Assembly: GCA_016124845.1 (NCBI GenBank)
Contig: WGMW01000006.1
Location: 62,001 to 126,000, forward strand
DNA length: 64,000 bases
Reading direction: 5' to 3'
From: Flavobacteriales bacterium
GTDB taxonomy: Bacteria > Bacteroidota > Bacteroidia > UBA10329
The notes beneath the pieces are model-generated. The model searched no databases, was not told where the DNA came from, and was given only the letters and a program-made list of their open reading frames with translations. Below, piece by piece: positions 44,770 through 62,468 of the stretch. Position 1 is the stretch's first letter. The number at the start of each line of letters is the position of its first letter. The position numbers and the translations under genes are program-made.

Positions 44770-46401
44770 ATGAAACTGCCCCTGATCCTAATTTCATGGC
44801 TCATTGCCCTGCAAACTTGGGCTCCCATCGGACTTTGGGTCCTTAAAAAGCTAAACGCAACGCTGGAAGAACGCCCCGTTCACAATTTCATTCTGGCAAC
44901 AATTGTAGGTGCTGCGGTAAACGCCACCATTCTTGGACTGCTTTCACTATGGATGCCGATAACCATCAATTTCAGCATGGTTTTGATGTTCATCTGTATT
45001 CTCATTTTGTCGCGCACCTTCAAGAAAGCCATCTCCACCATGTTCCAAGAACTGAAAACATGGTCGGTATTCGGTTGGGGTGCGCTGATCGGACTCATCG
45101 GCATAGCAGTTGTCTTTACAGCAATGCCATCGCTCAATAACGATTCGGGGCTGTATTACATCCAGTTCATGAAATGGATCAACAGCTACCCTGTGGTGCC
45201 TGGGCTGGCAAACCTCCACGACCGCTTGGGGTTCAATTCGCATTGGCATCTGCTTTCGGCCGCGTTCGACCTGAACGGCATCGACCCAACGGGCAGCAAC
45301 GACCTCAATGCCTTCCTTTTCATCCTCATCGGGTTGGGTTGCATCGCTTCTGCTGAACGGCTACGGCACCGCTCCGACCTTTTCGATGCCATCTGGGCGC
45401 TGTTCCCGCTTCCGTTCTTTCTGCTGCTGCGTTTTCTTACCAGCACCGCGCCCGACCTGCCTTCCACGCTCATCCCGCTCACCTATCTTTCGCTTGTTGC
45501 CACGCAGCGCGAAAAGGCATCGCTGCCACTCCTTGCGCTGCTCATCGTTTTTGCGGCCACCATTAAAGTACTCTCTGTGCTCCACGTTATTGCCATAATT
45601 CCACTGGCGTGGATGGAACTGAAAAAGCAGCGGTGGAACACCATCGGCCTTGCCGCCACCTTGGCCGTAGTGGTGGCGCTGCCTTGGGTATTGCGCAACG
45701 TGATGCAAACGGGGTATCTGGTGTTTCCGATGGAGAGTCTGGACCTTTTCAGCTTTGATTGGAAAGTACCGAACGAGCTTGCCGCCAACGCCCGCAAGAT
45801 GGTGGACGTGCATGCGCGGTTCGGCAATTACGACCTTGCCAACTACGGTCGCCCCATGAACGATTGGCTGCCGTTCTGGTTCGGGGTGCAATCCAAAACC
45901 GTACTCGGACTGATGGCATTTGTGTTTGCGGGCAGCTTTCTGCTGGTTGTGGCAGATATGTTCATGATCGATCGCCACCGAGGCACCAACCGCGTGGCGT
46001 TCAACCTTTTTCTTGCACTTACCGTGCTGATCAGTTTTGCTTTCTGGTGGCAGTCGGGCCCGAACCCACGGTTCATCTACGGCATCGTTTTCTTCTTTCT
46101 GGCCTACTCGCTGGCCGTGCTTGCAACCCAACTGCGGGTTGGCAAATGGCTGCGGTTCCTGCCGTTGGCGGCCCTGCTTCCCATGTTGGCCATTGGCCGA
46201 ACCATCCTAAAGGAGGAACCACCCACGCGCCCCACCGAATTTGCCACCATGCCCAATGTGGACGCCACCGTCTACTACCCCACCACCACCGATAAATGCT
46301 GGGATCATGCGCTGCCCTGCGCCAACAGAAACCGCACCGACCTTGAATTGAGAGGCGCGGAGCTGAAAGATGGCTTCCGCAACACGGAAACCGAGAAGTA
46401 A
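44770..46401 (+). CDS. Large membrane protein, GT-C-like, LIC_10190-type family possible
   Basis: A 543-residue protein with about twelve transmembrane helices. A loop between early helices holds NNDSGLYYIQFMKWINSYPV and LGFNSHWHLLSAAFDLNG, resembling the acidic and His-containing loops of GT-C glycosyltransferases. The C-terminal ~70 residues are soluble (TVYYPTTTDKCWDHALPCAN). The family is only guessed. It begins 3 bp after lptD, so co-expression with LPS assembly is likely and a role in surface glycan synthesis is inferred. Confidence 0.65.
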   Translation: MKLPLILISWLIALQTWAPIGLWVLKKLNATLEERPVHNFILATIVGAAVNATILGLLSLWMPITINFSMVLMFICILILSRTFKKAISTMFQELKTWSVFGWGALIGLIGIAVVFTAMPSLNNDSGLYYIQFMKWINSYPVVPGLANLHDRLGFNSHWHLLSAAFDLNGIDPTGSNDLNAFLFILIGLGCIASAERLRHRSDLFDAIWALFPLPFFLLLRFLTSTAPDLPSTLIPLTYLSLVATQREKASLPLLALLIVFAATIKVLSVLHVIAIIPLAWMELKKQRWNTIGLAATLAVVVALPWVLRNVMQTGYLVFPMESLDLFSFDWKVPNELAANARKMVDVHARFGNYDLANYGRPMNDWLPFWFGVQSKTVLGLMAFVFAGSFLLVVADMFMIDRHRGTNRVAFNLFLALTVLISFAFWWQSGPNPRFIYGIVFFFLAYSLAVLATQLRVGKWLRFLPLAALLPMLAIGRTILKEEPPTRPTEFATMPNVDATVYYPTTTDKCWDHALPCANRNRTDLELRGAELKDGFRNTETEK

Positions 46402-46460
46402 CGGCCCATTTGCACGAATTACAGATAGGTTTTTGCATGCAGAATCGAATGTGCATGACC

Positions 46461-46942
46461 TTCCGACCCATGGTTCCGTACGGATAATGCCCTCAGAAGA
46501 TGTTCCGATGTCGTTTTTTGTACAATTATCTGCATCGGAAGATGTTCCGAACCCCTTAGCGGCAGAAACATTGCCTTTCGGAAGATGTTCCGATGCTGTT
46601 TTCTGTACAATTATCTACATCGGAAGATGTTCCGAACACTTTGGCGGCAGAAACATTGCCTTCGGAAGACGTTCCGATGTCGTTTCCTGTACAACTATCG
46701 ACATGGTAGCGGGTCAGGATGTCGATTCCTGTACAAGAAACCACATCCTGCCGCGTCAGGAAGGGATTTTTTCATGCAGAAATGCCCTCCTGACCCGTTA
46801 GGGACCCAATTCTGTAATGAGAAATGCCTCCCTGACCGATCAGGAAGGGGGTTTTACGCGCAGAAATGTCCTCCTGACGTGATAGGAACCTCTTTAGGGA
46901 TAGGAACAATGCCCTCGGAACTTGTTCCGACCCGATGGTTTT
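46461..46942. repeat. 42-bp-period array of about 12 small palindromes
   Basis: This fills the 541-bp gap between two convergent genes. The 3' stem arm begins at 46461, 46503, 46545, 46588, 46630, 46672, 46714, 46756, 46798, 46840, 46882 and 46925, so the register is 42 bp with two 43-bp steps. Units at 46545-46672 and 46925 have CGGAA, four bases, TTCCG. Units at 46756-46882 instead have CCTGA-type arms with TCAGG-type arms. Both arms changed together, as expected for selected pairing. Between stems, TGTACA alternates with a GGCAGAAACATTGCC hairpin. It ends in T6. Confidence 0.88.
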
Positions 46943-47859: not shown

Positions 47860-47887
47860 TTGGAACGATAAATAGGGCTCATCCAAA

Positions 47888-47938
47888 CTGATCAACTAAT
47901 TCCCTGATCAACTGGTAAACTAATCAACTGGTCAACTG
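47888..47938. repeat. Short degenerate tandem repeat, GATCAACT words
   Basis: Four copies of a (G/A)(A/G)TCAACT word, 9-15 bp apart, fill the gap between miaA and the next gene on the minus strand. Same type as 4902-4934 and 37511-37544. Confidence 0.55.
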
Positions 47939-47940
47939 AA

Positions 47941-48615
47941 TCACATCAGGTCATCCATATTGAAGTCTTCGAAGCCTCCTTCGCCATCATCGTTGGAATC
48001 ATCATCCTCTTCATCTTCCTCCTCATCATCGTCTTCAGACAATGCTCCCAGCTTGCTGAAATCGATGGACGGGGCTTTGAAATCGGCCTTCTTGCTGGCT
48101 GCCTCCGCCTCTTTCTGAATGCGCTCAATATCCTCTTCAGATGGTCCGTCATCATCAAACATGTCTATGTCCATGTCTGCCGTAGGCTCATCTTCAGGAT
48201 CCGAAGCAATAGGCTCTGGCGGTGGCTGCGTGTAGTAGGGCGGGTCGCCTTCTTTCCGAACACACGTAGGATATTTGACACCTGGTTCCTCCTGCAGCAC
48301 CTTTTGCAGTTCGATGGCCAGTTCCACCTCTTTGTAGCTGATGGTGGCACACACAAAACGCTGGCGCGGAACGGTAATATGGTCTACAATGCGCTGGTGG
48401 TCGCCTTCCATGTTGGCATCCAACTCCACCACCGTATCTCCCGCATACCATTGCTGGTCGGAGCTGTAATACTCCACGGGTTGCCCCTGCTGAAAGTTGA
48501 AATGCTCCACAATGGCGCGGTGCAGATCGGCAAAACGCTGCTTGCCAAGCACGTCAATGTCGCGGTAGACCTCGTGGTCATCCTCAATGTAAACTCGGAA
48601 TCGGTAAACTGCCAT
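47941..48615 (-). CDS. Plasmid pRiA4b ORF-3-like (IS1096 TnpR-type) protein with acidic tail
   Basis: A 224-residue protein. The first ~95 residues match the pRiA4b ORF-3 family: YRFRVYIEDDHEVYRDIDVL, FADLHRAIVEHFNFQQGQPV and YYSSDQQWYAGDT. The remainder is extremely acidic, ending EDDDEEEDEEDDDSNDDGEG. Despite the database name linking it to insertion sequences, no transposase or terminal repeats are present, and such genes commonly sit next to miaA in Bacteroidota. Function unknown. Confidence 0.82.
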   Translation of the reverse strand: MAVYRFRVYIEDDHEVYRDIDVLGKQRFADLHRAIVEHFNFQQGQPVEYYSSDQQWYAGDTVVELDANMEGDHQRIVDHITVPRQRFVCATISYKEVELAIELQKVLQEEPGVKYPTCVRKEGDPPYYTQPPPEPIASDPEDEPTADMDIDMFDDDGPSEEDIERIQKEAEAASKKADFKAPSIDFSKLGALSEDDDEEEDEEDDDSNDDGEGGFEDFNMDDLM

Positions 48616-60906: not shown

Positions 60907-62468
60907 TGCACGATGAATTTGGTTTGATACAGGTGGTTTTCAGTTGCCACATTGAGTGAATAGACGCCCGAAGAAAGCGCGTTGAGGTCGAGGTTCCGCG
61001 ACCATGCGCTCCGTAGCACCTCTCGACCCGAAACATCCACAACCGTTACATTTTTCACCGCCAGTTGTGCTGGCTTTTTCAAATACAGAACGTCCGAACA
61101 TGGATTCGGCCACATGGAAATATCCTCTTTTGAGATGTCGGCCACGGCCACATTTCCAAGTGTTCGGAACGCATTGATCCTTCCTGCACCGATCATTCCG
61201 CTCATTCCCGGATTCTCCGCGCTGATGTCCTCACAACCTTGCTCTATCCGTTGACGGATCTGTGACGCATTCATGTTTGGGAAATACGATTTTACCAATC
61301 CTGCCAAACCTGATACCAGCGGAGTTGCCATGGATGTTCCACTGAGATTTCCGTACGTGTTATTGTTTTCTGGAAGTGTACTGTAGATGCCCACTCCCGG
61401 AGCCATCACATCCACAGTGGAACCATAGCTCGAAAATGATGCCTTGGCGTCATTCTCGTCTGTGGCTCCCACACTCACCACCTGCGGGTACGCGGCCGGA
61501 TAACTCAACGTTTGGTCTCCATCGTTTCCTGCTGCGGCCACCAGCAACGCACCCGAAACAGCCGCTTGCTGCACCACCGTTTTCAGCGTGGCCGCATCGG
61601 TAGTTGTTCCCCACGACATGCTGATAACATCAGCGCCAGAGCGCATGGCGTAATAAATGCCATCAATGCCGCCCGTAAGAGCAGCATCCGAATCGCGCCC
61701 GATCTTAACAGGTAAAATTTTTATCGAATAACCGATGGAAGCAATTCCCGTGTTATTGTTGGAAACCGCGCCAACAATTCCTGCCACGTGTGTTCCATGA
61801 ATGAATTCATCATTATTACCCGATGCATTTGCTGGCGGGCGCGGGTCGGCATCATTGTTTGCAACATCATAGCCATGCAGGTCATCTGCTCTTCCATTGC
61901 CATCATCATCCAATAATGTAAGGCCGTTCTGTTCTGCCGTGTTCAAGTAAATATTGGCTGAAAGATCCTGGTGATCAATGGAAATGGCATTGTCCAATAC
62001 AGCCACCAGCACGCTTGACGAACCTGTGGTGAAATTCCATGCTTCCTCTGCCTGTATTTTGGTCAACGCCCATTGGCCCGACTGAAGATCGTTCGGAGTA
62101 TGTGAAGTGAACATCAGCGGATTCTTCTCTGCATACTCCACGTAAGGCAACGCGCTTAATGCGCTGATCAACACATCAACTTGTGCCACATTCGGAAAGA
62201 TGACGCGGTAAATGCTGTCAAGTGCAGTTCCTGGCATGGGAAACGGCCGATAAATGCTGTCGAGTCCAGAAGCCGCAAACAGCAGGTCGATTGTAACATT
62301 GCCACCTGTGTATCCATCCAGATTGATTGGCGAAGCCCCAGAAAGCTTTAGATGGATCTGTCCGTCAATGGCATTCGGATCTACTGTTTGCGCAAGCAGA
62401 ACCGAGCTGGGCATTATGAATGAAACAAGGAAGGAAAGCGCGATGGTGTATAAAAATCTCATGAGCAT
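60903..62468 (-). CDS. S8 subtilisin-like serine protease with T9SS sorting domain
   Basis: A 521-residue secreted protease from the ATG at 62468 (MLMRFLYTIALSFLVSFIMP; 62462 is an alternative). A short pro-region precedes the S8 domain. The triad lies in VAVLDNAISIDHQDL, FIHGTHVAGIVG and SGTSMATPLVSGLAG. The C-terminus is a T9SS type A domain: MWPNPCSDVLYLKKP, VTVVDVSGREVLR and LSSGVYSLNVATENHLYQ. It should reach the surface by T9SS. It is probably co-expressed with the overlapping lipoprotein gene. Confidence 0.93.
   Translation of the reverse strand: MLMRFLYTIALSFLVSFIMPSSVLLAQTVDPNAIDGQIHLKLSGASPINLDGYTGGNVTIDLLFAASGLDSIYRPFPMPGTALDSIYRVIFPNVAQVDVLISALSALPYVEYAEKNPLMFTSHTPNDLQSGQWALTKIQAEEAWNFTTGSSSVLVAVLDNAISIDHQDLSANIYLNTAEQNGLTLLDDDGNGRADDLHGYDVANNDADPRPPANASGNNDEFIHGTHVAGIVGAVSNNNTGIASIGYSIKILPVKIGRDSDAALTGGIDGIYYAMRSGADVISMSWGTTTDAATLKTVVQQAAVSGALLVAAAGNDGDQTLSYPAAYPQVVSVGATDENDAKASFSSYGSTVDVMAPGVGIYSTLPENNNTYGNLSGTSMATPLVSGLAGLVKSYFPNMNASQIRQRIEQGCEDISAENPGMSGMIGAGRINAFRTLGNVAVADISKEDISMWPNPCSDVLYLKKPAQLAVKNVTVVDVSGREVLRSAWSRNLDLNALSSGVYSLNVATENHLYQTKFIVQ

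Follow-up and report, generated by a model that had tools for sequence, protein, structure and literature searches.

An array of alternating 21-bp half-sites beside miaA in a Flavobacteriales genome, probably the solo form of a binding array that belongs to a small gene-plus-array module

When both arms of a short palindrome change together, is it the pairing of the arms that is being kept, or is the same site simply written twice in opposite directions? The question is raised by an array of small palindromes in a Flavobacteriales bacterium (assembly GCA_016124845.1, contig WGMW01000006.1), which lies in the 64-kb stretch of DNA analysed here (64,000 nucleotides, positions 62,001 to 126,000 of the contig; hereafter the window). 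A reading made from the letters of the window, hereafter the sequence-only reading, had taken the change of both arms as a sign of selection for pairing in DNA or RNA. It had proposed a long structured 3' end of one of the two flanking messages or, alternatively, a protein-binding array.

Anatomy of the array and its flanking genes

The array was confirmed at positions 46459-46942 of the window. Below, its 16-bp stems are called A dyads and the stretches of 26 bp that lie between them are called B dyads.

44770..46401, + strand: membrane protein gene (543 aa), its 3' end facing the array
46459..46942, no strand assigned: whole array, dyads every 21 bp, two one-base slips
46459..46492, no strand assigned: half-site TTCCGA, the first of the array, followed by the B dyad CCCATGGTTCCGT-ACGGATAATGCCC
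46493..46703, no strand assigned: five units with A dyads of the TCGGAAGATGTTCCGA type
46704..46914, no strand assigned: five units with A dyads of the TCCTGACC/GTCAGGA type, the first one hybrid
46915..46942, no strand assigned: A dyad TCGGAACTTGTTCCGA, the last of its class, then a closing half-unit that reaches the miaA stop codon
46943..47848, - strand: putative miaA (301 aa, a name given in the sequence-only reading), convergent with the membrane protein gene

The 42-bp register with two one-base slips, as first described, is present, and the two units that start at 46535 and 46872 measure 43 bp. The register stands, but it is not the smallest repeat: the 26 bp between the stems, overlooked previously, are themselves mostly palindromic and often centred on GTAC, for example TGTCGTTTCC-TGTACA-ACTATCGACA. 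Therefore, a dyad comes every 21 bp, and what is truly repeated is a half-unit of about 21 bp, of which the array holds about 23 in alternating orientation. A half dyad near 46459 opens the array, which extends as far as the stop codon of miaA (46943). When six dyads are summed at 21-bp spacing the array scores 53, compared with a mean of 19 (sd 4) for the 64-kb window at the same spacing, and this value was reached by none of 500 dinucleotide shuffles. With 21 and 42 bp set aside, no spacing between 15 and 49 bp gives more than 42 anywhere in the window, and a 21-bp dyad spacing of such strength occurs nowhere else within it.

The reported switch of stems proved to be real: TCGGAA..TTCCGA dyads occupy the early units and the last one, and dyads of the TCCTGA..TCAGGA type occupy units 46746-46887. 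The alternation of TGTACA and GGCAGAAACATTGCC between the stems was likewise seen, in units 46493-46661. Within 46493..46703, B dyads of the TGTCG..TGTACA..CGACA type take turns with the GGCAGAAACATTGCC units, which are poor dyads in the 21-bp frame, and within 46704..46914 they are TGTCGATTCCTGTACAAGAAACCACA, followed by the AGGCATTTCTGCA-TGCAGAAATGCCT type. Hybrid dyads occur as well, for example TCGGAACA-CGTCAGGA. The CCCATGGTTCCGT-ACGGATAATGCCC type of B dyad, with which the array begins, is also present in two arrays elsewhere in this genome, the gene-linked C45 array and the solo C11 array.

The membrane protein gave no match in a Pfam search. Its convergent arrangement with miaA is found in two same-genus records (L020 and L027, identical in sequence and apparently one genome), where the array is absent and the two stop codons are 8 bp apart, compared with 541 bp in the genome studied here; other same-genus genomes carry a different gene at the 3' end of miaA. 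As only 8 bp, and not 541, separate the stops in a relative that shares this gene order, the array is not a conserved structured 3' end. The absence of the array from a near relative with a clean site had been named beforehand as a refuting observation, and this is what L020/L027 displays. In the gap upstream of miaA, at window positions 47886-47943, there is also a short tandem repeat of 8 bp (AACTGATC-like).

Arm pairing and half-sites

The raw count of covariations in the array is strong. However, this count is confounded, because within a class every arm is a copy of the same half-site. Each arm was compared with its own partner and with arms belonging to the other dyads of its array, and after this between-dyad test covariation was dropped as a support for pairing. 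No advantage of the own partner was seen in arrays C11, C26, C45, C6b, G093, G184 and G162 (A or B, p 0.13-1.0), some of them with no more than two to four dyads. In the window array the own partner fares slightly better than all other pairs (p about 0.01 to 0.02), but this advantage is mostly gone when neighbouring units are taken for comparison (6.00 vs 5.75 of 8), and therefore it reflects the arrangement of half-site types in blocks.

Mismatches of the G.U type and of the A.C type are equal in number (61 and 60), and folding is equally strong on either strand (z -7.7 and -7.1). The claim that the change of both arms points to selection for pairing is thus not borne out: arms fit other dyads equally well, G.U does not exceed A.C and folding is symmetric between the strands. 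These results and the hybrid dyads favour recognition of half-sites by a DNA-bound protein, and DNA half-sites of about 21 bp in alternating orientation appear to be a better reading of the array than selected pairing of arms. The protein-binding array, offered earlier as the other alternative, is accordingly the proposal that gains support, as predicted binding. A common asymmetric core, TCACAAT, is carried by 12 of the 12 half-units of the G093 array (a distant relative, see below), in two of them with one mismatch. A scan of the locus against Rfam gave no match at E up to 1.

Gene-linked arrays and their insertion sites

Four further arrays are present in the same genome, at C6:36.2 kb, C11:17.75 kb, C26:8.6 kb and C45:10.4 kb, and three of the five arrays lie between convergent genes. 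The C26 and C45 arrays directly follow two homologous small genes (33% identity; gaps of 46 bp and about 100 bp, respectively). The family has only these two members in the genome, each directly upstream of an array. The half-site types found in the solo window array exceed those of the two gene-linked arrays. A covariance-model search of 295 sampled genomes of the class found the array in its own genome only; weak matches in eight same-genus genomes were read and judged not to be arrays. Array DNA gave no match in phages and plasmids, and the exact 16-bp dyad was met in 15 stretches of viral contigs, none with array neighbours. Beside the second C6 array (L009:3381-3423) there is a perfect 16-bp inverted repeat with an 11-base loop and with a T-run and an A-run in its arms, which looks like a bidirectional terminator.

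The linked protein is about 130-140 aa long, and its N- and C-terminal halves are homologous to each other (hhalign E 9e-8). Matches to HTH_17 and excisionase stay below the curated cut-offs, each half being weak, and among named families the closest is phrog_7506, a recombination directionality factor, which matches one member at E 2.4e-5. We infer two tandem winged helices of the excisionase/MerR-like kind. Searches of Pfam and NCBIfam gave no family above cut-off for the linked proteins and no Y1 transposase match among them; there was no match to a toxin family, and the PADLOC match to mad1 is weak (best E 4e-4, three members). In the PDB a designed repeat protein (8etq) came up and was dismissed, as the match rests on a helix of 17-22 residues repeated five times. 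The family is rare in the class-wide sample (7/295 genomes) and was not found in viral contigs, plasmids and phages.

All five fully readable homologs elsewhere (G093, G184, G011, G125 and G162) have a 41-42-bp array directly 3' of the gene, although these loci are partly non-independent, as G011 and G125 are nearly identical and G093 and G184 share a neighbour. They come from distant relatives in two other genera, and their arrays are unlike that of the genome studied here in sequence: the units are ATTGTGA..TCACAAT (41 bp) in G093 and GTCCGTA..ACGGAC (42 bp) in G162. Dyads are spaced by 20.5 or 21 bp across the arrays, and those of G093 and G184 alternate at 20.5 bp. The dyad score lies above all 500 shuffles in 7 of 10 arrays and is reached by 1, 4 and 5 of 500 shuffles in G162, G125 and G011, respectively; dyad symmetry is weak in the last two. 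Period scores at the linked genes are 48-59 of 70, while control loci (270 kb) reach at most 45; a perfect 40-bp period at control locus L091 was rejected, being a run of N. A short single-domain match of 76 aa (G405) has no array, and the same-genus homolog in G008 (L076, C86) is cut by the contig end, where a repeat array has possibly broken the assembly.

Purifying selection acts on the linked gene (dN 0.18 and dS 0.98 for G093 vs G184). G125 and G011 do not differ in the gene (0/429) and differ at 14/250 positions in the array. The two loci (L077 and L078) cease to be homologous about 80 bp beyond the array on its distal side, where they have different neighbouring genes, and this would indicate a rearrangement close to the array. 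The 42-bp array of G011 (L078:1161-1493) has one open frame, which reads as 14-aa repeats (GRTIADMKGDQRIF); coding of this kind is impossible for the 41-bp arrays of other genomes. G093 also contains four to five direct repeats of 21 bp, GGATGTCCGCAATTACTTCTT-like (L087:15-110, C7, about 194.9 kb), about 1.4 kb from a weak 61-aa match to the C-terminal half of the linked protein.

The sites of insertion were compared with relatives at genes which we take to be psd, yjjG and sua5 from reading their sequences. The stop codons of psd and yjjG overlap in five same-genus genomes, and in the genome studied here about 686 bp of gene and array are inserted between them, beginning six bases before the start codon. 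At sua5 the gap to a divergent gene is about 77 bp in relatives vs 732 bp, gene and array included, in this genome. At both psd and sua5, no more than about 10 bp separate host sequence from the start codon of the module. The module gene at sua5 follows TACATTTG, to which a promoter role is given after Bacteroidota promoters in general; in relatives the same sequence sits just before the start codon of sua5, and therefore the module gene seems to have captured the putative sua5 promoter. Judged from these comparisons, gene and array together, and a solo array in the case of miaA, were inserted in this lineage at sites that are empty in relatives, and the gene with similar arrays appears to be a self-contained DNA element.

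A proposed mechanism and competing explanations

We consider it fairly likely that the window array is a gene-less copy of the binding array that belongs to this small mobile module. It would probably be bound by the two-headed DNA-binding protein that the linked genes are predicted to encode. A two-domain monomer may cover one half-unit of 20.5-21 bp, that is two helical turns with one turn per domain. Neighbouring monomers would then meet head-to-head at one class of dyads and tail-to-tail at the other, so that the protein would coat the array as an alternating filament on one face of the helix. Such a filament would most likely help the element to maintain itself or shape the DNA locally. 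The preservation of the gene and of the 20.5-21-bp architecture, with a site sequence that has fully changed between lineages, would suggest co-evolution of protein and site, and that the element acts as a chromosomal nucleoprotein platform. It is possible, and we put it forward tentatively, that a gene for a two-winged-helix protein, together with its own phased array of alternating half-sites, makes up a class of minimal mobile elements, which insert directly after a host promoter or stop codon and give rise to solo arrays. A limited literature search of open-licence papers found no earlier description of such a module. If this is true, an RNA-looking repeat is the readout of a protein family without a curated name, its DNA site changes almost completely between lineages while the spacing stays fixed, a natural series is at hand for testing protein-array co-evolution, and a DNA element without a recognised transposase has inserted at three or more places in the chromosome of a single lineage.

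Small DNA-binding proteins that are encoded beside an iteron array and can form filaments are known from the partition centromeres ParR-parC and TubR-tubC. The modules resemble them in the small DNA-binding-like protein next to an array and in the proposed filament, but no motor gene was seen beside the modules, which are chromosomal and have inverted half-units. A precedent for winged-helix filaments is given by BldC and RdfS, small MerR/Xis-like proteins that, as proposed here, sit side by side on DNA with about one turn per domain and occupy sites of variable length (PMC5859096, PMC11963761). However, BldC and RdfS/Xis are single-domain proteins that line up head-to-tail along direct repeats close to promoters or attachment sites (PMC5859096, PMC11963761), whereas the protein proposed here has two domains and an alternating orientation, a dedicated array behind its gene and solo arrays elsewhere.

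One would argue that the arrays are selfish intergenic palindromes of the REP/BIME kind, moved by a transposase acting in trans, with the small gene as a passenger or an accessory factor. BIMEs have features similar to those described here and, with RAYT, offer a precedent for species-specific palindrome arrays linked to a gene (PMC2817692). The likeness extends to intergenic position, alternating orientation, hybrid arrays, fast evolution, co-divergence with a dedicated gene and patchy, species-specific spread at sites empty in relatives (PMC2817692). However, inspection by eye of the ORFs listed beside the modules showed no transposase, and the linked gene, which encodes DNA-binding-like domains, matches no catalytic family and is not like a Y1 tyrosine transposase. 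A RAYT gene is expected to encode a Y1 (IS200/IS605-type) transposase, with an HUH motif and a catalytic tyrosine, and to carry inverted GTAG/GTGG-headed REPs on both flanks, whereas here the array lies on the 3' side only and there is no GTAG-headed REP. Additionally, the sites are phased at 20.5-21 bp, pairing within dyads is not favoured, and five arrays were found where REPs usually have more than 100 copies. Thus we regard this explanation as unlikely.

Even less probable is an array of structured RNAs or bidirectional terminators at convergent 3' ends. The strong folding, five terminator-like stems in the array where 0.6 are expected, and the convergent setting of three of the five arrays would fit it. 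Against this stand the strand symmetry of folding, the equal G.U and A.C counts, arms that match no better within dyads than between them, the absence of the array from the relative with the same gene order, and one gene-plus-array block that lies between a divergent gene and sua5, which is not a shared 3' end.

A system like type III toxin-antitoxin, in which a repeat RNA neutralises a small protein, would also place a small gene beside a tandem array with a sequence specific to each genome. We consider it very improbable: the array is downstream of the gene and not upstream, the protein resembles two DNA-binding domains and not a ToxN-like nuclease, pairing has no strand bias, and the solo arrays would be left without a role. 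An equally slight chance is given to a functionless tandem repeat made by accident or slippage, which can generate 42-bp tandem copies and agrees with an array evolving faster than its gene in G125 and G011, but the same 20.5-21-bp dyad architecture stands, in unrelated sequences, behind homologous genes in three genera.
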